Shown piece after piece: positions 3,303 to 17,948 of a DNA stretch of 50,975 nucleotides. The notes beneath the pieces were generated by a model. It saw only the letters and a list, made by a program, of their open reading frames with translations, made no database searches and was not told where the DNA came from. The DNA lies in NCBI RefSeq assembly GCF_000787835.1, contig NZ_BBPP01000041.1:27432-78406 (forward strand). The letters run 5' to 3'. Position numbers and translations under genes: made by a program. Numbering within the stretch: the first letter of the stretch is position 1; each line of letters begins with the position of its first letter. Source of the DNA: Streptacidiphilus melanogenes (GTDB lineage: Bacteria > Actinomycetota > Actinomycetes > Streptomycetales > Streptomycetaceae).

Positions 3303-3444
3303 AGGGGCGCGAGGAACTGCGCGACAAGCCACTCTTCGTGGCGTGTCGCTGCGCGAGCCGGGCCATCCGCACCGGGTGGTTGCTCGCGCCCACGCGGCGA
3401 AGCCGCAGATCGGTGCAGCCTCGCGCCCCTGGACAGTGCAACTA
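3303..3444. repeat. Intergenic inverted-repeat element, copy 2, between malQ and pepN
   Basis: A perfect 12-bp inverted repeat AGGGGCGCGAGG (3303-3314) / CCTCGCGCCCCT (3419-3430) encloses about 104 bases. Inside it a second hairpin pairs GACAAGCCAC with GTGGCGTGTC (9 of 10). The right border GTGCAACTA (3436-3444) is the complement of TAGTTGCAC, and its last three bases are the TAG stop codon of the minus-strand pepN. The same border occurs at the valS element. The element could terminate transcription from both convergent genes. The 3205-3302 stretch to its left holds nothing I recognise. Confidence 0.8.
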
Positions 3445-6039
3445 CCGCTGTGCGGCCGCGCGGTCCGCCGCCTGGGCCTTGAGCGCGCGCTCGACGCCGC
3501 TGCGGCACTCGACGACCATGCGGCGCAGCGCCGGGGCCGGCGCGTTCGCGTCGAGCCAGGCGTCCGTCGCCTCCAGGGTCTCCGTGGAGACCTGGATCGT
3601 CGGGTACAGGCCGACGATGATCTGCTGGCCCATCTCGTGCGAGCGCTGCTCGAAGATGCCCTTGATCGCGGCGAAGTACTTCGCCGTGTAGGGGGCCAGC
3701 AGGTCCGCCTGCTCCGTCTGCACGAAGCCCGCGATGACCGCCTCCTGGACGGTGTTGGTGAGGGTCTCCGCCTCGACCACCGACGCCCACGCCGCCGCCT
3801 TCGCCTCGGCCGTCGGGCGCGACGCCCGGCACGTGGCCGCGTGCGCCTCGCCGGCCGCGGTGGGGTCGCGCTCGAGCTCCTCCATGACGGAGGCCTCGTC
3901 CGCGACACCCGTCGCGGACAGCCGCTGCAGCAGCGCCCACCGCAGCTCGGTGTCGACGGCCAGGCCGTCGATCTCGACCGACCCGTCGAGCAGGCCGGTC
4001 AGCAGGGCGAGGTGCTCCTCCGTGGACGCCGCCGCGGCGAACGCCCGCGCCCACGCCAGCTGGTGGTCGCTGCCGGGCTCGGACGCGCGCAGCAGCCGCT
4101 CCGCGGCCTCCGCCCAGGTGGACCGGCCGGTCGGACGCCACTCGGGCGCGGCGTAGAGCTCGATCGCCAGGCTCGCCTGGCGCTGCAGCGACTGCACCAC
4201 GCCGATGTCCGACTCGCGGCCCACGCCCTGCAGCACCAGCTCCAGGTAGTCGCGGGTGGCCATCTCGCCGTCGCGGGTCATGTCCCAGGCCGCGGCCCAG
4301 CACAGCGCGCGCGGCAGCGACTCCGCGAAGTCGGCGATGTGCCTGGTGACGTTGGCCAGCGAGAAGTCGTCCAGGCGGATCTTCGCGTAGGAGAGGTCGT
4401 CGTCGTTGAGCAGGATGACGGCCGGACGGTCGCGGCCGACCAGCTGCGGGACCTCCGTCAGCTCGGCCGCCTCGATGTCCAGCTCGATCCGCTCGACTCG
4501 CTTGAGGGCCGAGCCCTCCAGCTCGTAGAGGCCGATGGCGATACGGTGCGGCCGCAGCACGGCCTCGCCGCGCGCGCCGGCGGGCAGCGCCGGGGCCTCC
4601 TGGCGGACGGCGAAGGAGGTGATGACGCCGTCGGCGTCGACCTCCAGCTCCGGGCGCAGCACGTTGATGCCGGCCGTCTCCAGCCAGGACTTGGACCACG
4701 CCTTCAGGTCGCGGCCGGAGGTCTGCTCCAGCGCGCCCAGCAGGTCGGACAGCCGGGTGTTGCCCCAGGCGTGGCGCTTGAAGTAGGCCTGCACGCCCGC
4801 GAAGAACGCGTCCTGGCCGACGTAGGCGACCAGCTGCTTCAGCACCGACGCGCCCTTGGCGTAGGTGATGCCGTCGAAGTTGACCTGGACGTCCTCCAGG
4901 TCGTTGATCTCCGCCATGATCGGGTGGGTGGACGGCAGCTGGTCCTGGCGGTAGGCCCAGGTCTTCATCTGGTTGGCGAAGGTCGTCCAGATGTTCGGCC
5001 AGCGGGTGCCCTCGGCCTCGGCCTGGCAGACGGTCTCGGCGAACGTCGCGAACGACTCGTTCAGCCAGAGGTCGTTCCACCACTCCATGGTGACCAGGTC
5101 GCCGAACCACATGTGCGCCAGCTCGTGCAGGATCGTGGTCGCGCGGCCCTCGTAGGCGGCGTCCGTCACCTTGGAGCGGAAGACGTACTGGTCGCGGATG
5201 GTCACCGCGCCCGCGTTCTCCATCGCACCCGCGTTGAACTCCGGCACGAACAGCTGGTCGTACTTGGAGAACGGGTAGGCGAAGTCGAACTTGTCCTGGA
5301 AGTAGTCGAAGCCCTGCCGCGTCACGTCGAAGATGTGGTCCGCGTCCAGGTACTGCGCCAGCGACGGACGGCAGTAGACGCCCAGCGGCACCCGCTGCTC
5401 CCCGTCCGGGCTCACGTACTCGCTGAAGACGCCGTGGTACGGGCCCGCGATCAGCGCAGTGATGTACGTCGACATGCGCGGGGTGACCGGGAACCGGTGC
5501 AGCTCGGTGCCCTCGACGGCGCCCTTCTCCGGGTCCGGGGAGACCTCGTTGCTGATGACTTTCCACCCGGTCGGCGCGGTGACCGTGAACAGGAAGGTGG
5601 ACTTGAGGTCCGGCTGCTCGAAGGAGGCGAAGACGCGGCGCGCGTCCGGCACCTCGAACTGGGTGTACAGGTAGGTCTGCTGGTCGACCGGGTCGACGAA
5701 CCGGTGCAGACCCTCGCCGGAGCTGCTGTAGGCGCAGTCGGCGACGACGCGCAGCTCGTTCTCGGCGGCCAGGCCCGGCAGCGCGATCCGGCTGTCGGCG
5801 AAGACCTCGGCCGGGTCGAGCGCGACGCCGTTCAGCGTCACCTCGTGCACCGCGGGCGCGACCAGGTCGATGAAGGTGGAGGCGCCGGGCGTGGTGGCGG
5901 TGAACCGGACCACGGTGGTGGAGCGGAACGTGCCTCCCTCCGCGGCCGTGCTCAGGTCGAGCTCGATCTCGTAGGCGTCCACGTGGAGGAGCTCTGCCCG
6001 GGTGCGGGCCTCCTCACGGGTCAGGTTGGTGCCAGGCAC
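3442..6039 (-). CDS. pepN: Aminopeptidase N, M1 family (copy 1)
   Basis: This zinc metallo-aminopeptidase removes N-terminal residues from peptides in the cytoplasm. With the GTG start at 6039 it has 865 residues, matching the paralogue at 13036-15624 (862) and the family. The exopeptidase motif GAMEN is present, and the zinc site HELAH (H305, H309) with E328 lies in a typical HExxH-x18-E spacing. The start is chosen because AAGGAG lies nine bases upstream and the N-terminus PGTNLTREEA aligns with the paralogue. An ATG at 6078 in the same frame would add 13 residues but has no ribosome binding site. The TAG stop is part of the repeat border TAGTTGCAC. A C-terminal ERAP1-like helical domain is expected from length. 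Confidence 0.93.
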   Translation of the reverse strand: MPGTNLTREEARTRAELLHVDAYEIELDLSTAAEGGTFRSTTVVRFTATTPGASTFIDLVAPAVHEVTLNGVALDPAEVFADSRIALPGLAAENELRVVADCAYSSSGEGLHRFVDPVDQQTYLYTQFEVPDARRVFASFEQPDLKSTFLFTVTAPTGWKVISNEVSPDPEKGAVEGTELHRFPVTPRMSTYITALIAGPYHGVFSEYVSPDGEQRVPLGVYCRPSLAQYLDADHIFDVTRQGFDYFQDKFDFAYPFSKYDQLFVPEFNAGAMENAGAVTIRDQYVFRSKVTDAAYEGRATTILHELAHMWFGDLVTMEWWNDLWLNESFATFAETVCQAEAEGTRWPNIWTTFANQMKTWAYRQDQLPSTHPIMAEINDLEDVQVNFDGITYAKGASVLKQLVAYVGQDAFFAGVQAYFKRHAWGNTRLSDLLGALEQTSGRDLKAWSKSWLETAGINVLRPELEVDADGVITSFAVRQEAPALPAGARGEAVLRPHRIAIGLYELEGSALKRVERIELDIEAAELTEVPQLVGRDRPAVILLNDDDLSYAKIRLDDFSLANVTRHIADFAESLPRALCWAAAWDMTRDGEMATRDYLELVLQGVGRESDIGVVQSLQRQASLAIELYAAPEWRPTGRSTWAEAAERLLRASEPGSDHQLAWARAFAAAASTEEHLALLTGLLDGSVEIDGLAVDTELRWALLQRLSATGVADEASVMEELERDPTAAGEAHAATCRASRPTAEAKAAAWASVVEAETLTNTVQEAVIAGFVQTEQADLLAPYTAKYFAAIKGIFEQRSHEMGQQIIVGLYPTIQVSTETLEATDAWLDANAPAPALRRMVVECRSGVERALKAQAADRAAAQR

Positions 6040-6190
6040 GCTGGGTGACTCCTTTGTCGACTGTGTCTTCGCTGGCATCTTTGCACGTCCGGGGTGACGC
6101 CCTCAGTGCATTACGCGCAGCTTGACGGTGATGCCCGTCGTGGCGCGGATAGGGTGACAACCCGTATGTGGGGACGAAGGGGGCATCCGC

Positions 6191-7627: not shown

Positions 7628-7948
7628 GTGAGTGGATACGAAGTAGATCTGAGCTACCTGCAGGACACAGTCAAGAAGCTGCAGGGTGTTGCGGACGGCA
7701 TGGATGACGCGAACCAGAAGGCGCAGTACCAGACGAACCTGACGCGCACCCAGGTCGGCGGCACCATGTTCGTCGAGGCCGGCAACCTCCACACTGCTCA
7801 CGACAACATGAAGTCGCAGTTGGCGAACATGATCAAGACGCTTCAGACGATGATCCAGGAGTTCACCGACAAGACCGGCAGCGCCCACGACCAGTATTCG
7901 GCGCAGGACACCCAGACCGGCCAGAACTTCTCGAGGGGGGCCTCCTGA
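7628..7948 (+). CDS. WXG100-like small ESX protein lacking the Trp
   Basis: A 106-residue, alpha-helical, Leu-poor and Gln/Asn/Thr-rich protein of the size and helix-turn-helix layout of WXG100 (EsxA/EsxB) proteins. Such proteins are exported by type VII secretion as helical-hairpin dimers. At the turn, where WxG is expected, the sequence is TQVGG (VGG, residues 43-45), so the tryptophan is missing. Near the C-terminus YSAQD (residues 90-94) fits the YxxxD/E export signal. The GTG start has GGGAGG six bases upstream. Its TGA stop overlaps the ATG of the next gene by one base, indicating translational coupling and a likely heterodimer partner. Family membership rests on size, helix pattern, neighbours and the YxxxD motif. 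Confidence 0.75.
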   Translation: MSGYEVDLSYLQDTVKKLQGVADGMDDANQKAQYQTNLTRTQVGGTMFVEAGNLHTAHDNMKSQLANMIKTLQTMIQEFTDKTGSAHDQYSAQDTQTGQNFSRGAS

Positions 7949-9300
7949 TGGCTGACGCGGCAGCCGATTACCAGTACGCGCAGCAGCAGGCCAAGGCGCG
8001 GCAGCAGGCCCAAGCCCAGGGCGACAAGGACTGGAAGAAGTACCTCGACCAGAACAAGGGCGGCAAGACCGGCTACGACGGCTACACGACGGACTTCGAG
8101 TCCGCAGGCGGCTACGACGGTCTCCGCAAGATGATCGAGGACGCCGACCCGGGCGCGATGACGACGGTCTCCCAGCACTGGGGCTCGATCGCCTCGATGC
8201 TCACCGAGACGGCCGGCGCCCTCGGCACCCACGTCAACAACATGCTGGAGCACTGGACCGGCGACAGCGCGGACGCGTTCCGCTCGAACGCCCAGGACCT
8301 GAGCACCAGCCTGACGAACGGTTCGCAGTACGCCAAGATCGCCGAGGGCGCGATGAGCCAGGCGAGCACGGCACTGACGACCGCGAAGGCCCACTTCCCC
8401 GGCCCACCCAGCAACTGGGACAAGTTCACCCACTCCGGGGGCAGCGATGCCCAGTTCCACGAGGACGCCCTGAAGTACGGCCTAACCAAGGCCTTGCAGA
8501 TGGACGGTGGCGACCTCAGCGCCTGGGAGCGGGTGCACCAGCAGGCGGTCGTCGTCATGCAGTCGTTGGGCACCTCGTACAACGACTCGGCGGCCCAGAT
8601 GGGGAACACGCCTGGATCTCTGGCCAATTACGGTGTCTGGCCCGCGCCTCCGGCGGATGCAACGCCCAGCCCGATCTCGCACACCGGCGGTACGCCGGAG
8701 GGCCCGAACGGCGGAGGAGACGTCGGCCTGAAGCCGATCACCGGTGGTGACGGTGGCGTGCACGACAATTTCAAGCCCGGTCAGAACGGCGGAAACGGCT
8801 TCGTGCCGGGCGGCGGCGGGGTCGGCGGTGTCCACGGCGGCGGAGGAGGGGTCACTCCTCCCAAGATCGGTGGCACGCTTGACGGCACGCCAGGCGGCCT
8901 GAGGACCGGCACCGGTGTGGGCGGTGGTATTCCCGGCGCTGGCGGTGTCGGCGGTGTCTCCGGCCTTGGTGCGGGCGGCGGCGGCGGTGGTGGCGCCTTC
9001 GGCGGCGGCGCCGGGGGTCTGAGCGGTCTCGGGGCCGGTGGACTCGGCGGCGGCACTGGTATGGCCGGCGGCGAGAGCGCCAACGGCTTGTCGGCTGAAG
9101 AGAAGGCCGCGATGGGCGCCGAAGGCGAAGGCGCCGGCGGCGCCGGCCAGGGCGAAGGCATGGGCATGGGCGGCGCAGGCGGCCTGGGCTCCGGCAACCG
9201 GAAGAAGAAGCAGCGCAAGGCCCGTGCCGGTTATCTGGTGGAGGACGAGGAGACCTGGAACGACAACGCCGCGTCGAACCCGGGCGTGATTGAGTTCTAA
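7948..9300 (+). CDS. WXG-containing glycine-rich ESX substrate
   Basis: A 450-residue protein with three parts. Residues 1-220 are helical and carry the WxG turn as EHWTGDSADAF (W103-G105) between two long helices, like PPE, EspB or other large WXG proteins. Residues 225-415 are a low-complexity Gly/Ala-rich linker with many GGGG runs. The end is basic (RKKKQRKAR) followed by GYLVEDEETW, in which YLVED (429-433) fits the YxxxD type VII export signal. It starts at ATG overlapping the stop of the small partner (TGATG). It probably leaves the cell with that partner through an ESX machine encoded elsewhere. The linker could span the wall. The function after export is unknown. Confidence 0.8.
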   Translation: MADAAADYQYAQQQAKARQQAQAQGDKDWKKYLDQNKGGKTGYDGYTTDFESAGGYDGLRKMIEDADPGAMTTVSQHWGSIASMLTETAGALGTHVNNMLEHWTGDSADAFRSNAQDLSTSLTNGSQYAKIAEGAMSQASTALTTAKAHFPGPPSNWDKFTHSGGSDAQFHEDALKYGLTKALQMDGGDLSAWERVHQQAVVVMQSLGTSYNDSAAQMGNTPGSLANYGVWPAPPADATPSPISHTGGTPEGPNGGGDVGLKPITGGDGGVHDNFKPGQNGGNGFVPGGGGVGGVHGGGGGVTPPKIGGTLDGTPGGLRTGTGVGGGIPGAGGVGGVSGLGAGGGGGGGAFGGGAGGLSGLGAGGLGGGTGMAGGESANGLSAEEKAAMGAEGEGAGGAGQGEGMGMGGAGGLGSGNRKKKQRKARAGYLVEDEETWNDNAASNPGVIEF

Positions 9301-9353
9301 GTGTCAAGTAGTGTCCTGTTCGTCGGTTGAACGAAGACGAGCGGGGTGACGGT

Positions 9354-10718
9354 ATGGGCTTCAGTCGAGCACTGCGAAGTTTGGGAGGGGCAGCGCTCGC
9401 TGGAGCCCTCGTCGTCGGTGTGGCACCGATGGCCCACGCTGACGAGGCCCGAAGCGCCCAATGGCCCATTTCGGAATACCAAGCGAGTAAGTACGTATGG
9501 CCCAAGAGCACCGGCAAGGGCGTCACTGTCGCGGTGATCGACACTGGTGTGCGGGCCACTCACATCGACCTGGCTGGGCAGGTGCTGTCCGGTAAGGATT
9601 TCGCGTTCGGTGGCGACGGCGAGACCGACCATTCCCCTGAAGGCCACGGGACCGCGGTCGCCAGCCTCATCGCGGCGCACGGGCACGGTCCGAGCGACGC
9701 TGACGGGATCATCGGCTTGGCCCCCGGAGCCAAGATCCTGCCGATCGGCGTGGGTGCTGGAACCGGCGGGGGCGGAACCGACTACGTTCCCCAAGCCATC
9801 CGCTATGCGGTCGATCACGGTGCGCAGGTCATCAACATGTCACTCGGCGGTGCCACCGCACCTGCCGATGAGGAACAGGCCATCGCCTACGCGGAGCAGC
9901 ACAACGTCGTAGTCGTGGCTGCCGCAGGCAACGAAGGCATCAGCGTTCCGCAGTACCCGGGCTCCTACCCGGGTGTCATCAAGGTGGGAGCGGTCGACCA
10001 GAGCGGAACGCTCTGGCCCCAGTCCAACACCGGCGGCATCACCGTGGTTGCACCGGGTGCGGGGATCGTCGGCGACGGGGCTCAGAGCGATACCGGATAC
10101 GGCAAGGGCGACGGAACCAGTTTTGCGACGGCTTATGTCTCGGCGATCGCGGCGATCTACCGCTCCGCGCACCCGAACCTGACCGCTGGCCAGATCGTCA
10201 ACTATGTCATCAAGACGGCCATCATGCCCAAGGGGATGACGGCACCCGATTCGGCCTACGGCTACGGGATCGCGTCGCCCGATCTCAACATGAAGGTGGC
10301 CGCCGGTCCGGCCGCAGGGCCGCTGCCGCAGGCCACTCCGTCGGCGGGTGGCGGCTCGTCCGACGGTGGCAGCAGCGCGGCTCCCGGAACCTCGACGACC
10401 GCGTCCGACTCCTCCAGCAGCGGCTCGATGGGGATCATCCTCGGGGTCCTGGGCGGGCTCGTGGTCCTCGTGATCATCATCGTGGTCATCGCGCGTAATC
10501 GCCGTGGTGGCGGTGGTGGGAACGGCGGAGCCGGTGGGGGCGGGGGACAGCCCGGGTACCCGCAGCAGCAACAGCCGCAGCAGGCGTACCAGCCGCCGAC
10601 GGGGCAGTACGGCGGCCAGAGCCCGTACGGTCAGCCGCCGCAAGCGCAGAACCCGTACGGCGGGGGCAATCAGCCGTATCCGCCGCAGCAGAACCCGTAC
10701 GGCAACCAGGGGCGGTAA
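9354..10718 (+). CDS. mycP: Type VII secretion-associated serine protease mycosin (S8)
   Basis: A subtilisin-family protease anchored outside the membrane; mycosins stabilise ESX machines and cleave ESX substrates. With the ATG at 9354 it has 454 residues. A signal peptide ends at AHA (27-29). The catalytic triad is D63 (VAVIDTGV), H98 (EGHGTAVAS) and S256 (GTSFATAY), with the oxyanion Asn in AAGNEG. A single membrane segment lies at about 361-382, flanked by Arg. It is followed by an unusual cytosolic tail of about 70 residues rich in Pro, Gln, Gly and Tyr, where short mycosins normally end. The start is chosen because GGGG lies seven bases upstream; a TTG nine codons earlier is possible. 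It lies 53 bp after the glycine-rich substrate gene. Codon use is less GC-biased than in neighbouring core genes. Confidence 0.92.
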   Translation: MGFSRALRSLGGAALAGALVVGVAPMAHADEARSAQWPISEYQASKYVWPKSTGKGVTVAVIDTGVRATHIDLAGQVLSGKDFAFGGDGETDHSPEGHGTAVASLIAAHGHGPSDADGIIGLAPGAKILPIGVGAGTGGGGTDYVPQAIRYAVDHGAQVINMSLGGATAPADEEQAIAYAEQHNVVVVAAAGNEGISVPQYPGSYPGVIKVGAVDQSGTLWPQSNTGGITVVAPGAGIVGDGAQSDTGYGKGDGTSFATAYVSAIAAIYRSAHPNLTAGQIVNYVIKTAIMPKGMTAPDSAYGYGIASPDLNMKVAAGPAAGPLPQATPSAGGGSSDGGSSAAPGTSTTASDSSSSGSMGIILGVLGGLVVLVIIIVVIARNRRGGGGGNGGAGGGGGQPGYPQQQQPQQAYQPPTGQYGGQSPYGQPPQAQNPYGGGNQPYPPQQNPYGNQGR

Positions 10719-10730
10719 CAGCAACGAAGA

Positions 10731-10765
10731 GGGCGTCAACCGAGCGGTGCTCGGCTGACGCCCTT
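10731..10765. terminator. Bidirectional terminator between mycP and beta-propeller gene
   Basis: A 16-bp stem with one mismatch (10731-10746 with 10750-10765) and a GGT loop lies between the convergent mycosin and beta-propeller genes. It is followed by TT on the plus strand and so can serve both transcripts. Confidence 0.85.
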
Positions 10766-10786
10766 TCGTGTGTCCTGGCCCAGCGG

Positions 10787-12910
10787 CTACTTGAAGAGCT
10801 GCACCGCCTTGCCGGTGGCGTCGGGAGTGGCCAGCAGGACCTGGCCGTTGGGCAGGAGGTAGACCGTGCCGGGGCTGTAGTCCACCGCGGTGAGGTCCGA
10901 CGGGAGCTTGGCGATGACCGTCGACTTGCCGGAGGCCGGATCGAGGGAGACGATCTCCGGGCCGGAGTTCGAGCTGTAGCCCGGTACGAAGGAGATCGCG
11001 TACACCTTGCCCGTGCTGCCAGAGCCCGAGCCAGAGCCTGAGCCGGAGGCGCTCTGCGGGGTGCGGACGAGGACCGCGCCGCCGTGCGACTCGCCGTCGT
11101 AGGTCCAGAGGGCGACGCCCGTGCTCGGGTTGACCGCCGTGATGCCCTGCTTCGACGAGCTGCTGTTGGTCGGGACGAGCAGGGTCGAGGAGTCGACGGA
11201 CACCGCGCCGGAGTCGGCGCTGTTCAGGCGCATCGGCGCCTGGACCGGGTTGGGCAGGGAGAGAGCCGTCGCGTTGCCGCTGCTGTCGTAGCGGTACGCG
11301 GCCTGGGAGCCGCCGCTCTCCGTCGTGGCGACGATCGGCGACCCGGTCATCACGCTGCTGATCTGGGTGTGGTCGGACTCCTGCTTCTGCCAGATCTGCT
11401 TGCCCGTCGCCGCGTCCAACGCGGTCAGGGTGTAGGTGGGGCTGACGTCGGCGCAGTAGTCGTCGACGATGACCGTGCCCGCGCCGCCGTAGGGGTAGGC
11501 GTTGCAGTACTGGCCGCGGGCCTTGTAGCCCCAGACCACGTGGCCGTTCGTCAGGTTGACGCCACCCAGCACGTTGTCGTTGACGATGACGCCGACCTGG
11601 TTGTCGACGAAGGTCGACGTGGAGGACGCCTCGGAGTGCCCGGACGAGGTGAGGGAGGTGGACCACAACGTCTTGCCGGTGTTGGTGTCGACGCCGACCA
11701 GGGTCGTGCAGCTGTCGGCGTTGGGGCCGAAGCCGACCGTGCCGATGCCGGAGGCGGAGACCGTCGGCGACATGGCGCAGGGGACGCCACCACCGGAGAG
11801 CGGCTGGGCCGTCCACGCGGGGGCGCCGTTGCTGAGGTTGTAGGCCTTGACGCCGGCCGAACTGGCGCGGACCAGGTACTGGTTGGTGACCCAGGTGCCG
11901 ATCTGCTCGTCGGAGACGCTGCCCGACACCGTCCACCCCGCCGCCAGCGTGCGCACGGAGCCACCACCGCCGCCTCCGGTCCCGCCACCGCCACCGCCGC
12001 CACCGGAAGCGAGTGCGACGGCCGCCACCGCGACGACCACCAGGGCGACGCCGCCGGCGATGATGCCGGTGATCGCGTTGCGGCTCAGGCCGCTCCGCGG
12101 GGGAGCGGCGGGCTGCGGGTAGCCGGGGTAGGGGTACCCGGTCTGCGGCTGACCCTCCATCGGGAGCGGCGGCATCTGCGGCCACGGTCCCTGTCCGTCG
12201 GGGCCCACCCCGGGTTGGCCGTACGGCGGCTGCCCGTAGGGTGCCTGCCCGGACGGCTGCTGCCCGTACGACGGCTGCCCGTACGACGGCTGCTCGTACG
12301 GCGGCTGCCCGTACGGTGCCTGCCCGGACGGCTGGGCGAACTGCCCCTGCTCGAACGGCGGCTGGCCGTAGGGGGCTTGCTCGTACCCGGGCTGCGGGCC
12401 GTAGGGGGACTGCCCGTACGGGAGCTGTGCCATCGGCTGGCCCATCGGCGGCGCCATCGGGTTGGGCACCGGATCGCCCATCGGCGGTAGCGGGTAAGGC
12501 TGCTGGGCGGGGGCCGCGCCGCCGTCGGCCTGCGGCGGCGCGCCGGGACCGGGGTAGCCGTAGCCCTGCGTCGGCGCGGCCGCGAACGGCTGCTGCGGGT
12601 GCGGGAAGCCGTACCCGGCTCCCGGCGGCATCTGGCCCGTACCCGCCCCCGCAGCGCCCGGCCCTGCTGCGCCCTGCGCCGGTGCCGACGTGTCAGCGCC
12701 ACCCTGGGTCTGGTGCGGGACCTGCGGTGTGGCCATCTCCGTCGGGGTGTAGGCCCAGCCGGGTTGGCCGGAGAGCTGCGGCGGAGGGCCGTCCGTTCCG
12801 GCCCCGCCTGCCGCGTCCGCTGTGGACTGCGGCACCGCGTCCTGTGGCGTACCCGCCGACAGGCGGTAGTCGTCGTCTCTCTCGTCCGAGCCCGAACCGT
12901 GGTCTGTCAT
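10787..12910 (-). CDS. Membrane-anchored PQQ-like beta-propeller protein
   Basis: A 707-residue protein. Residues 1-275 are a disordered cytosolic region rich in Pro, Gly, Gln and Tyr with repeated YGQPPYGQ-like units. A single membrane segment lies at about 279-303 (GIIAGGVALVVVAVAAVALA), followed by a Gly run. The remainder, about 325-707, is predicted outside the cell and shows PQQ/BamB-like propeller repeats such as GVDTNTGKTLWSTSL and ALDAATGKQIWQK. The start at 12910 has GAGAGG upstream. PQQ-like propellers in actinobacteria usually act as binding platforms rather than enzymes. Its place convergent to the mycosin and its similar low-complexity tail suggest that it belongs to the ESX-type module, perhaps as a surface receptor or chaperone. 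That link is inference. Confidence 0.85.
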   Translation of the reverse strand: MTDHGSGSDERDDDYRLSAGTPQDAVPQSTADAAGGAGTDGPPPQLSGQPGWAYTPTEMATPQVPHQTQGGADTSAPAQGAAGPGAAGAGTGQMPPGAGYGFPHPQQPFAAAPTQGYGYPGPGAPPQADGGAAPAQQPYPLPPMGDPVPNPMAPPMGQPMAQLPYGQSPYGPQPGYEQAPYGQPPFEQGQFAQPSGQAPYGQPPYEQPSYGQPSYGQQPSGQAPYGQPPYGQPGVGPDGQGPWPQMPPLPMEGQPQTGYPYPGYPQPAAPPRSGLSRNAITGIIAGGVALVVVAVAAVALASGGGGGGGGTGGGGGGSVRTLAAGWTVSGSVSDEQIGTWVTNQYLVRASSAGVKAYNLSNGAPAWTAQPLSGGGVPCAMSPTVSASGIGTVGFGPNADSCTTLVGVDTNTGKTLWSTSLTSSGHSEASSTSTFVDNQVGVIVNDNVLGGVNLTNGHVVWGYKARGQYCNAYPYGGAGTVIVDDYCADVSPTYTLTALDAATGKQIWQKQESDHTQISSVMTGSPIVATTESGGSQAAYRYDSSGNATALSLPNPVQAPMRLNSADSGAVSVDSSTLLVPTNSSSSKQGITAVNPSTGVALWTYDGESHGGAVLVRTPQSASGSGSGSGSGSTGKVYAISFVPGYSSNSGPEIVSLDPASGKSTVIAKLPSDLTAVDYSPGTVYLLPNGQVLLATPDATGKAVQLFK

Positions 12911-13035: not shown

Positions 13036-15624
13036 TCAGCGCGCGTCGCAGACCTGCGCGCGCAGCGCGCGGGCGAGGTCGTCGCGGCACTCGCGCACGA
13101 GACGGCGCAGCGCGGGGGCTGCGTCCTCGTGCTCCGCGAGCCACTGGTCGGTGCGGGCCAGCGTCGCGTCCGTGCTGATCAGGCGCGGGAAGAGGCCGTT
13201 GACGATGCGCAGCGCGATCTCGATGGACCGCTCCGCCCAGACCTTCTCCAGCACCTCGAAGTACGGCTCCGCGTACGGGGCGACGAGCTCGCGCTGCGAT
13301 GCCTGCTGGAAGCCGGCGATCTCCGCCTCCAGCAGGGCGTTCGGCAGCTCGTCCGTCTCCACGACCGCATGCCAGGTGCGGGCCTTGGTCTCGGCGTTCG
13401 GCGCGGCCGCACGGGCGGCGGTCTCCAGGCGCTTGCCGCTGGCGGTGTTGTCGCGCTGGAGTTCCGCCCGCAGTTCGGCGTCACCCGCGCGGCCGCTCGC
13501 GACCAGCGTCTGGAGCATCGCCCAGCGCAGCTCCTGGTCGACGTCGAGGCCGTCGACGCGGGCGGTCCCGGCCAGCAGCCCGGCCACCAGCTGGAGTTCG
13601 GACTCGACGTGCGCGGACTGCGCGAAGAACCGCGCCCACGCGAGCTGGTGGTCGCTGCCCGGCTCCGCCGCCCGCTGCTCCGTGAGCGCGCCCGCGGCGA
13701 TGGCCTGGGCGGCGGCCTCGCGTCCCTCCGGGACGACGTACTGCTCCAGCGTCAGCCGGGCCTGGGTGTGCAGCTGCTGGAGCACGCCGATGTCGCTCTC
13801 CAGGCCCGCGAAGCGCAGCACCAGGTCGAGGTAGTCGCGGGCCGGCATCAGGCCGTCGCGCGTCATGTTCCACACGGCCGACCAGCACAGGGCGCGGGCC
13901 AGCGGATCCTGGACGGTGCCGAGGGAGGCCCGCAGCGTGTCCAGCGACTCCTCGTCGAAGCGCATCTTGCAGTACGTCAGGTCGTCGTCGTTGACGAGCA
14001 CCAGCGCCGGACGCGGCGCGCCCGCCAGCTCCGGCACGGACGTCCGAGCCTCGGCCCGCACGTCCACCTCGACGCGCCGGCTGCGCACCAGGCGGCCGTC
14101 CTCCGTCAGGTCGTAGAGGCCGACGGCGACGCGGTGCGGGCGCAGCGTCGGGTAGTCCTCGGCGGCGTCCTGCAGCACCGCGAAGTCGGTGATCCGGCCC
14201 TCGGCGTCGACGGTCAGCTCCGGGGTGAGCGCGTTGACGCCCGCCGTCTGCAGCCAGGCGCGGGACCACTGCGCCATCGCCTCCTCGCCGCGACCGCTGG
14301 TCTCGGCGAGGACGGCCAGCAGGTCGTTCAGCGTGGTGTTGCCGAAGGCGTGGCGCTTGAAGTAGCGACGCGCGCCCTCGAAGAAGGCGTCCCGGCCGAC
14401 GTAGGCGACCAGCTGCTTCAGCACCGCCGCACCCTTGGCGTAGGTGATGCCGTCGAAGTTGAGCTTCGCGTCCTCGAGGTCGCGGATGTCCGCCGTGATC
14501 GGGTGCGTGGTGGGCAGCTGGTCCTGACGGTAGGCCCACGCCTTGCGACGGTTGGCGAAGGTGATCCAGCCGGACTGGTACTTGGTCGCCGCGACCTGCG
14601 AGAACGCGCCCATGAAGTCCGCGAAGGACTCCTTCAGCCACAGGTCGTCCCACCACTGCATGGTGACCAGGTCGCCGAACCACATGTGGGCCATCTCGTG
14701 CAGGATGACGTTGGCCCGGCCCTCGTACGCCGCCTCGGTCACCTTGGAGCGGTAGATGAACTCCTCGCGGAAGGTGACGCAGCCCGGGTTCTCCATGGCG
14801 CCGATGTTGTACTCGGGCACGAACGCCTGGTCGTACTTGCCGAACGGGTACGGGTAGTCGAACTCCTCGTGGAAGAAGTCCAGGCCCTGCTTGGTGACGT
14901 TGAAGATCTCGTCCGAGTCGAAGTACTGCGCCAGCGACTTGCGGCACAGCGCACCCAGCGGGATCTCCAGCGTCGTGCCGTCCGGCAGCTCGCGGCTGTA
15001 GTGGTCGCGGTCGACGTGGTACGGGCCGGCCACGATCGCGGTGATGTAGGTGGAGATGCGTTGCGTCGGCGCGAAGCTCCAGGTGCGCGACCGGTCCTCG
15101 TTGCGCTTCGGCTCGCCCGTCGCGGCGGAGTTGGAGAACGCCTCCCAGTGCGCGGGCGCGGTCACCGTGAAGGTGAACGGCGCCTTCAGGTCCGGCTGCT
15201 CGAAGTTGGCGAAGACGCGGCGAGCGTCGGCCGGCTCGTACTGGGTGTAGAGGTACACCTCGCCGTCGACCGGGTCCACGAACCGGTGCAGGCCCTCGCC
15301 GGTGTGGCTGTAGGCGCAGTCGGCGTCGACGACCAGCTCGTTCTCGGCGGCCAGGCCCGGCAGGGCGATCCGCGACCCGTCGAAGACCTCGGCCGGGTCA
15401 AGCTCCCGCCCGTTCAGCGTCACGCTGCGCACGTGCGGCGCCAGCAGATCCGCGAACGAGTCCGCGCCCGGCTCGGAGCAGCGGAACCGCAGCGTCGTCC
15501 GCGAGCGGAAGACGCCGCTGTCGCCGAGCGCGCTGCGCACGTCGAGCTCGACGGTGTACCCGTCGACCGCGAGGATCCGTGCCCGCTCGCGGGCCTCGTC
15601 ACGGGTGAGATTGGTGCCGGGCAC
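13036..15624 (-). CDS. pepN: Aminopeptidase N, M1 family (copy 2)
   Basis: A second full-length M1 aminopeptidase, 862 residues, collinear with the copy at 3442-6039 and highly similar by eye over most of its length. GAMEN is present, and the zinc ligands are H309 and H313 (HEMAH) and E332. The GTG start has GAGGAG eight bases upstream and gives the N-terminus PGTNLTRDEA. The C-terminal half differs more from copy 1 than the catalytic half. Streptomycetes often carry more than one pepN, so this may be an old duplication. Both copies are cytoplasmic and probably differ in substrate range or expression. The gap to the beta-propeller gene (125 bp) shows no clear terminator. Confidence 0.94.
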   Translation of the reverse strand: MPGTNLTRDEARERARILAVDGYTVELDVRSALGDSGVFRSRTTLRFRCSEPGADSFADLLAPHVRSVTLNGRELDPAEVFDGSRIALPGLAAENELVVDADCAYSHTGEGLHRFVDPVDGEVYLYTQYEPADARRVFANFEQPDLKAPFTFTVTAPAHWEAFSNSAATGEPKRNEDRSRTWSFAPTQRISTYITAIVAGPYHVDRDHYSRELPDGTTLEIPLGALCRKSLAQYFDSDEIFNVTKQGLDFFHEEFDYPYPFGKYDQAFVPEYNIGAMENPGCVTFREEFIYRSKVTEAAYEGRANVILHEMAHMWFGDLVTMQWWDDLWLKESFADFMGAFSQVAATKYQSGWITFANRRKAWAYRQDQLPTTHPITADIRDLEDAKLNFDGITYAKGAAVLKQLVAYVGRDAFFEGARRYFKRHAFGNTTLNDLLAVLAETSGRGEEAMAQWSRAWLQTAGVNALTPELTVDAEGRITDFAVLQDAAEDYPTLRPHRVAVGLYDLTEDGRLVRSRRVEVDVRAEARTSVPELAGAPRPALVLVNDDDLTYCKMRFDEESLDTLRASLGTVQDPLARALCWSAVWNMTRDGLMPARDYLDLVLRFAGLESDIGVLQQLHTQARLTLEQYVVPEGREAAAQAIAAGALTEQRAAEPGSDHQLAWARFFAQSAHVESELQLVAGLLAGTARVDGLDVDQELRWAMLQTLVASGRAGDAELRAELQRDNTASGKRLETAARAAAPNAETKARTWHAVVETDELPNALLEAEIAGFQQASQRELVAPYAEPYFEVLEKVWAERSIEIALRIVNGLFPRLISTDATLARTDQWLAEHEDAAPALRRLVRECRDDLARALRAQVCDAR

Positions 15625-16547: not shown

Positions 16548-17948
16548 CTACCTCTTGCGCGCCCAGAGCAGGCCCAGTCCCGACAGGACCCCCGTCGCGC
16601 CCAGCGTCGTCGCCAGCTGGACGCGGTTGCCGTGGCTGAGCAGCATCAGGGCGAGGACGGCCACGACGCCCGCCAGGGTCACCCAGGTGAGGTACGGGAA
16701 GGCCCACATCTTCACCGTCAGCCGTTCCGGCGCCTCGCGCTCGACGCGCTTGCGCATCCGCAGCTGGGCGACGCAGACGAACGCCCACACGACGAGGACC
16801 GCCGCCCCGACGGCGTTCAGCAGCCAGGCGAAGACCGTCGTCGGCCACCAGAAGTTCAGCAGCACCGCGAAGAAGCCGAAGGCCGAGGACGCCAGCACGG
16901 CGAGCCGGGGCACACCCCCGCGCACGCGGGCCAGCGCCTTGGGGCCGAGGCCGCGCTGGACGAGCGAGTACGCCATCCGGGACGAGCCGTAGATGTTCGC
17001 GTTCATCGCGCTCAGCAGGGCGATCAGGACGACCACGTTCATGATCTGCGCCGCCGCCGGGACGCCGATGAGGTTCAGGGTCGCGACGTAGGGGCCGGTT
17101 TTCACCACGTTCGGGTTGTTCCAGGGCAGCAGGGTGACGATGACGGCCATCGAGCCGACGTAGAAGATCGCGATGCGCCACATCGCGGTCCGCACCGCAT
17201 TGCCGACGCTGCGCACGGGGTCCTTCGACTCGGCCGCGGCGATGGTGACCGTCTCCAGACCGCCGTAGGCGAAGACGGACGCGAGCAGGCCGGTGACCAG
17301 GCCGTTGACGCCGTGGGGGAGGAAGCCGCCGTGGCCGGTCAGGTTGTCCAGGCCGGGGGCGCCCTTGCCGACGACGCCGAGCACGGCGAGCACGCCCAGC
17401 ACCAGGAAGCCGACGATCGCCGCGACCTTGATCGCGGCGAACCAGAACTCGAACTCGCCGAAGTTCTTCACCGCCGTGAGGTTGCTCGCGCAGAAGAAGG
17501 CCATGAACAGGGCCACCCACATCCAGGTGGGCGTGCCGGGCAGCCAGTTGGTCATGATGCCGGCGGCGCCCGTCGCCTCGGCGGAGACGCCGACGCAGAG
17601 CAGCAGCCAGAACAGCCAGCCGGAGGCGAACCCGGCCCAGGCGCCGATCTCCTTCTCCGCGTGCACCGAGAAGGAACCGGAGGCGGGTCGCGCGGCGGAC
17701 ATCTCACCGAGCATCCGCATGACGAGCATGACCAGCACGCCGGAGGCCGCGAAGGCCAGCACGATGGACGGGCCCGCCGCGGCGATGCCGGCTCCGGAGC
17801 CGACGAAGAGGCCGGCGCCGATGACGCCGCCGAGGGCGATCATCGAGAGGTGGCGCGGCCGGAGGCTGTGGGACAGGCCCGGCGTCGCGGGCCGGCCGGT
17901 CTGCGGAGTGCTCTGCTGCGAGGGCTGAGGTGCGGTCGTGGTGCTCAT
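16548..17948 (-). CDS. Amino acid permease, APC family
   Basis: A 466-residue integral membrane protein with about twelve hydrophobic segments. The first contains the APC substrate-binding signature IALGGVIGAGLFVGSG, and the conserved MLGEMSAARPASGSF follows. It resembles the GABA/proline/aromatic amino acid permease group, which imports amino acids with protons. The substrate cannot be read from sequence. The N-terminal 27 residues are Thr/Gln/Pro-rich and cytosolic. The ATG start at 17948 has AGGA a few bases upstream. It stands alone, divergent from bioY. Confidence 0.92.
   Translation of the reverse strand: MSTTTAPQPSQQSTPQTGRPATPGLSHSLRPRHLSMIALGGVIGAGLFVGSGAGIAAAGPSIVLAFAASGVLVMLVMRMLGEMSAARPASGSFSVHAEKEIGAWAGFASGWLFWLLLCVGVSAEATGAAGIMTNWLPGTPTWMWVALFMAFFCASNLTAVKNFGEFEFWFAAIKVAAIVGFLVLGVLAVLGVVGKGAPGLDNLTGHGGFLPHGVNGLVTGLLASVFAYGGLETVTIAAAESKDPVRSVGNAVRTAMWRIAIFYVGSMAVIVTLLPWNNPNVVKTGPYVATLNLIGVPAAAQIMNVVVLIALLSAMNANIYGSSRMAYSLVQRGLGPKALARVRGGVPRLAVLASSAFGFFAVLLNFWWPTTVFAWLLNAVGAAVLVVWAFVCVAQLRMRKRVEREAPERLTVKMWAFPYLTWVTLAGVVAVLALMLLSHGNRVQLATTLGATGVLSGLGLLWARKR

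Follow-up and report, generated by a model that had tools for sequence, protein, structure and literature searches.

The window, which is the whole 50,975-nucleotide (nt) stretch of DNA analyzed here, comes from Streptacidiphilus melanogenes (G000:C67:27432-78406; genome of 8.77 Mb in 107 contigs) and carries three plus-strand genes, here called A, B, and M, that resemble two substrates and a mycosin protease of an ESX or type VII secretion system (T7SS). These genes and a minus-strand propeller gene, P, are real, and all four open reading frames (ORFs) lie at the places given in Table 1. A and B overlap by one base, and the stop codon of B lies 26 nt upstream of the longest M ORF, which begins with TTG at 9327; the likelier start of M is the in-frame ATG at 9354, after which a signal-peptide-like stretch begins. 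The convergent M and P genes are separated by a hairpin of -40.7 kcal/mol (z -4.7), which was equaled by 0 of 200 shuffled sequences and unflagged by a simple terminator scan. The ORFs and the hairpin agree with the gene order, A-B coupling, B-M spacing, and shared M/P terminator given in a preliminary description of this DNA.

An export signal split between two partners, with YxxxD on one and WxG on the other, is known for EsxB/EsxA and PE/PPE pairs; in the latter, a small YxxxD/E protein is followed by a larger WxG protein with a Gly-rich extension. The fold of EspB is PE/PPE-like, and its C-terminal part is flexible. In our alignments, the Y...D/E near the C terminus is kept in 13 of the 14 A rows, the remaining row having F, and W103 and G105 of the B motif (W103-G105) are invariant in 17 of 17 rows. 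The preliminary description had called the small gene WXG100-like, which holds only loosely: as a helical hairpin of about 100 amino acids (aa) with WxG is what defines WXG100 proteins, A has the right size but no WxG, and its sole Pfam T7SS match is a sub-threshold one to EspC (E 0.014). The WxG sits in B, which scores 20.7 bits for WXG100 against the Pfam cut-off of 27.3 and matches Pfam PPE at 27.2 bits, barely above the cut-off of 26. At E 0.01, WXG100 is matched by 14 and PPE by 13 of the 17 B rows, and the B profile matches solved EsxA (E 1.2e-7). A has no Pfam match to PE, the family of the first protein in PE/PPE pairs, and is predicted to form a helical hairpin with moderate confidence (predicted local distance difference test [pLDDT], 66.5). 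The B linker (residues 241 to 415) contains 46% Gly, and neither A nor B matches any known toxin family in Pfam or NCBIfam.

Behind this linker, B ends in a tail of the form R-x-x-Y-L-x-E-D-x-x-x-W, about 6 to 7 residues, and then mostly N-P-x-V-[IV]. Among loci that B or mycosin searches had turned up, 25 rows were selected by motif, and all of them share the R, W, P, and V (L015 and L016 were omitted as probable duplicates of L054 and L055). In a class-wide profile search, the tail was present in 32 of 296 genomes; 44 matches were listed, and loci were obtained for 30 of them, of which one is the window itself and 29 lie outside its genome. The tail stands at most three residues from the stop codon in 17 of these 29 loci (L155 to L170 and L183), and a mycosin gene lies directly behind it in all 17, the two genes overlapping slightly or lying up to 112 nt apart. 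Of these 17, L165 and profile row L053 represent a single gene; L155, L156, L164, and L169 were read also through the larger stretches L187, L194, L195, and L192, respectively. L180 and L182 were assigned to neither tail class, and L185 and L193 had no annotation. A B paralogue in the cassette of contig C102 (L017:6745-8541) contains two copies of the tail, separated by about 100 residues.

M scores 236 bits against the TIGR03921 mycosin model, short of the curated cut-off of 278.75, and its C102 paralogue scores 307.5 bits. Its catalytic D/H/N/S residues are intact in the alignment, and it has the N-terminal hydrophobic stretch and C-terminal transmembrane segment (TM) of a mycosin, with signal peptide and TM assigned by hydropathy only. 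Because a strict motif search had failed, we suspected that most cassette mycosins lack catalytic residues, which the alignment ruled out: D/H/N/S are kept in 65 of the 67 mycosin rows inspected, and both exceptions are short (L064, 285 aa; the L097 row, 257 aa). Duplicate domains were removed before labeling (98 to 93 rows), and a tree was built from 91 rows, leaving out a fragment row and the EsxB-adjacent mycosin of L097 (G031). On one side of this tree lie 50 tail-associated and 6 unlabeled mycosins, and on the other side 21 EsxB-adjacent and 14 unlabeled ones; a 27-row ESX group (95/94) and two large tail groups of 21 and 32 rows (100/99 each) are well supported. The unlabeled rows on the tail side include the second mycosins of tandem pairs in L055, L059, and L188, and the others come from L164 (cut by the locus end and a duplicate of an L195 row), L068, and L145. 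Both large tail groups mix Streptacidiphilus with members of other genera, and therefore at least two cassette lineages probably arose before the genus did. As separate observations, tandem mycosin genes stand behind a single B at L055:9312-13461 and L059:9956-12625, and in L055 the second mycosin is separated from P by a minus-strand ORF whose start (13461) resembles a transposase by visual inspection only. Additionally, six mycosin-like proteases (L081, L083, L086, L090, L093, and L102) form a group of their own (100/100) with neither an EsxB nor a tail label; their upstream genes mostly fall outside the 4-kb loci.

Searches of the window and of L021 (contig positions 17,500 to 37,000) revealed no relative of EccB, EccC, EccD, or EccE, and the first 17.5 kb of the contig, searched for EccC, EccD, and mycosin only, gave none of these either, which bears out the earlier statement that no ecc gene lies near the cassette. 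An ESX/T7SSa cluster, in which EccB, EccC, EccD, and EccE are encoded together, is hence absent from the window, and the complete set is found on contig C45. A search of the genome for eccC gave a sole match above the cut-off, on C45 (876 bits), the sole EccD is also there, and this one complete ESX locus comprises EccE, EccB, two WXG100 proteins (EsxA and EsxB), a mycosin, EccC, and EccD. Outside it, the genome has three mycosins, each behind a tail-bearing B, on C67 (the window), C48, and C102; weak TIGR03921 matches on C79 (149 bits, one internal stop) and C103 (20 bits) were not counted. Because the ESX locus has its own mycosin too, M is an extra mycosin and not the one missing from a machine. 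The C45 machine could be available for the cassette to borrow. The idea of a satellite cassette borrowing an ESX machine thus survives insofar as A-B-M recurs and one complete machine is encoded elsewhere, but not in its four-gene form.

Relatives of B (E 0.001) occur in 31 of 61 genomes, the window's own included, and the weak ones cover part of B only. EccD is found in 31 of the 32 genomes with the tail, versus 119 of 296 overall. Within the window's family, at least 18 of the 26 tail matches outside its own genome lie within 35 kb of EccD on the same contig (places compared by hand), and at least 10 of 14 in other families lie within 10 kb. In genus g9 of the same family, probably Streptomyces, 17 of 27 sampled genomes have the tail, and one locus has the gene order EccE-EccB-EsxA-EsxB-MycP-A-B-M-M (G301). 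The ESX-linked order in G172 is EsxA-EsxB-MycP-A-B-M. It had been envisaged that a full ecc cluster might normally include the set and merely be split here, and this is half true: in g9, A-B-M is usually in or near an ecc locus, and therefore the detached form is a variant. In the genus of the window, among the matches listed, no B above 50 bits and no compared cassette mycosin lies within 150 kb of an EccD on a shared contig, many of the B, mycosin, and EccD matches being on separate contigs of draft assemblies. As far as these genomes indicate, separation from the machine is a feature of Streptacidiphilus, and the window holds the detached form of a common ESX-locus extension.

According to the above-described analysis, we think it rather likely that A-B-M is an ESX-dependent substrate-plus-protease cassette whose dedicated mycosin, M, acts on B. 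A and B would pair as a helical heterodimer of the EsxB/EsxA or PE/PPE type, with YxxxD on A and WxG on B, and the single EccBCDE machine would export this heterodimer. M, which is predicted to be membrane anchored and is of a type distinct from the ESX-locus mycosin, would join the EccBCDE complex and handle B on the far side, where it probably recognizes or cuts near the tail behind the Gly-rich linker, as MycP1 processes EspB. In other members of the family, the unit is often an extension of the ESX locus, and in Streptacidiphilus it is detached and multiplied. One ESX machine may then serve several substrate pairs, each with its own mycosin. A bolder version seems rather unlikely to us: the B tail would be an address tag for its own mycosin, and one EccBCDE would take alternative mycosins from detachable cassettes, each of which also brings the matching substrate pair, being retargeted through exchange of its outer protease without duplication of the whole ESX system.

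Several observations weigh against a dedicated pairing of tail and mycosin, and some of them favor an alternative, to which we give a minority share of belief, in which EccC or another part of the core reads the tail as an export signal and M is a linked duplicate mycosin, redundant with that of the ESX locus and inactive on B. Ten loci of family f20 have the tail 32 to 34 residues before the end of proteins that are mostly about 1,000 aa long; no mycosin occurs in the 1.6 to 3.1 kb obtained around them (L173 and L177 are contig-end stubs), and in the 8 of these 10 genomes that were searched, the mycosins among the matches listed are on other contigs or megabases away. At least 7 of these 10 loci share a contig with EccD. 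The tail has diverged in three A-B pairs (L065 to L067), for which the 19 kb obtained contain no mycosin; an apparent lectin fusion of B in these loci was discarded, as it came from a merged gene call and the true frame ends in the diverged tail. Since the tail stands without an adjacent mycosin in both sets, it may serve the ESX core rather than M. The tail also has its own YxxxD-like element, YLVED, and mycosin proteolysis is described as dispensable for mycobacterial secretion (PMC5082899). Furthermore, the mycosin tree gives weak support (77/87) to the branch that separates its two sides, cassette-type mycosins lack a recognized upstream tail in L068, whose B retains only NPRVI, and in L145, and EccD was not found in one genome with the tail (G273, 1310 contigs). 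AlphaFold models B with low confidence (pLDDT 40), and because the A profile matches no T7SS protein in the PDB, the class of A rests on its size, helices, motif, and position. What speaks for M as the partner of the tail is that every one of the 17 C-terminal-tail loci has its own mycosin of the distinct type and that A already carries a YxxxD/E signal. As a side observation, an ESX-type locus of f20 encodes a 1036-aa protein (L184:6151-9258) in which 33 residues follow the tail motif; the 19.5 kb obtained contain no mycosin, and the third gene after it encodes more than 3100 aa and reaches the end of the stretch.

The cassette as a functionless remnant, left when an ESX locus was split from its machine, would fit the lack of ecc genes nearby and the internal stop in some distant copies of the 6191 gene family described below, but it is quite improbable given that the ORFs are all intact, that mycosin catalytic residues are so widely kept, and that tail, WxG, and YxxxD are conserved over lineages. 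Hardly credible at all is a four-gene module in which P would be a surface partner of A-B-M, as the preliminary description had proposed. P matches the PQQ_2 propeller family (71 bits) and has a single TM predicted from hydropathy, and in the 14 genomes of the genus (G000 to G013) the cassette adjoins it in 8 (G000, G002, G003, G004, G007, G008, G010, and G012), with M and P convergent. However, 4 of the 14 have P alone at the same site in the order aminopeptidase-H-P-aminopeptidase, with stop-to-stop gaps between H and P of 15 (G001), 15 (G005), 228 (G009), and 4 nt (G011); G009 has a cassette elsewhere as well, and G006 and G013 have no close P and carry the cassette elsewhere. Outside the genus, the 16 to 19 kb obtained for P homologues (G018, G023, and G032) contain none of the genes A, B, and M. 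The empty sites and the cassettes without P rule out P as a fourth cassette member, so that of the expected four-gene co-occurrence only A-B-M is a recurring set.

The substrate-plus-protease cassette may have an accessory gene. Upstream of A on the plus strand lie a 239-aa gene (6191) and an abhydrolase gene, H (6920), and two M1 aminopeptidase genes (3442-6078 and 13036-15624; about 56% identical) bracket the whole site. Members of the 6191 family occur in 11 of the 14 Streptacidiphilus genomes and, with one weak case, in 2 of 47 from outside the genus. Its gene is present at 7 of the 8 occupied sites, the site of G003 having neither H nor the 6191 gene, and at 0 of the 4 empty sites; it also stands beside three cassettes of another lineage, and of its 19 places in the genus, 9 have no identified cassette next to them. 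A role as an EspG-like chaperone was considered and dropped, since neither Pfam (E 1) nor the PDB (E 5) yielded a match.

Table 1. Features of the A-B-M cassette and its surroundings (window positions)
Feature	Position	Strand	Basis or remark
Possible accessory gene, 239 aa	6191..6910	+	Family nearly confined to genus
Gene A, 106-aa EsxB/EspC/PE-like helical protein without WxG, YxxxD near C terminus	7628..7948	+	
YSAQD (YxxxD) of gene A, candidate T7SS export signal	7895..7909	+	A alignment
Gene B, 450 aa: WXG/PPE-like N-domain, Gly-rich linker, conserved C-terminal tail	7948..9300	+	
W-T-G motif of gene B	8254..8262	+	Alignment of 17 B rows
C-terminal tail of B, R-x-x-Y-L-x-E-D-x-x-x-W ... 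N-P-x-V-[IV]	9196..9297	+	
Gene M, mycosin (S8 subtilase): signal-peptide-like N terminus, C-terminal TM, Pro/Gln-rich tail	9354..10718	+	Longest ORF from 9327
Hairpin between convergent M and P, likely bidirectional terminator	10724..10769	.	Folding versus shuffles
Gene P, PQQ_2 propeller, resident neighbor, judged outside the cassette	10787..12910	-	

The components of such a system have been touched on in several reports. MycP1 processes EspB on secretion, and EspB was the only mycosin substrate known when that account was written (PMC5082899). Streptomyces genomes contain ESX loci, second partial copies, and scattered WXG100 genes (PMC8401907). In S. pratensis, the mycosin Sfla_1620 lies beside Sfla_1621, which was likened to ESX-1 secretion-associated Ala/Pro-rich proteins, and both are listed as highly divergent core genes (PMC4239341). 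A mycosin-like protease was also noted near a WXG polymorphic toxin, Ntox38 (PMC3482391). In the accessible parts of the open-licence PubMed Central literature, including these four papers as well as PMC1660551, PMC4791881, PMC5994538, and PMC10924467, A-B-M as a cassette, the tail, and the detachment are not described, and the link between tail and mycosin appears to be new within the literature searched. A recurrent substrate-mycosin pair of soil bacteria, with a short conserved tail and apart from the machine, offers a testable system for the purpose of mycosin protease activity, and the A-B-M cassettes also bear on how several substrate sets could share a single type VII machine.

Compared with known systems, A-B-M is like EspB-MycP1 of ESX-1 in the sense that a T7SS substrate is processed by the mycosin of its own system in the latter (PMC5082899), but differs in having two proteins, A and B, an extra mycosin, a conserved B tail, and a unit detached from the machine. 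With Ntox38 WXG toxins it shares a T7SS protein with a mycosin-like protease nearby (PMC3482391), whereas A and B match no toxin family and B ends in the tail. The likeness to PE/PPE pairs lies in the order of a small protein with YxxxD/E and then a larger one with WxG and a Gly-rich extension, but A does not match PE, and B is extended at its N terminus. Sfla_1620/Sfla_1621, a mycosin beside an ESX-1-associated-like protein, is by its description probably the same B-M pair; the accessible account differs in giving no A, tail, detachment, or repeated cassettes (PMC4239341). We conclude that A-B-M is a variant of the known ESX substrate-mycosin organization.

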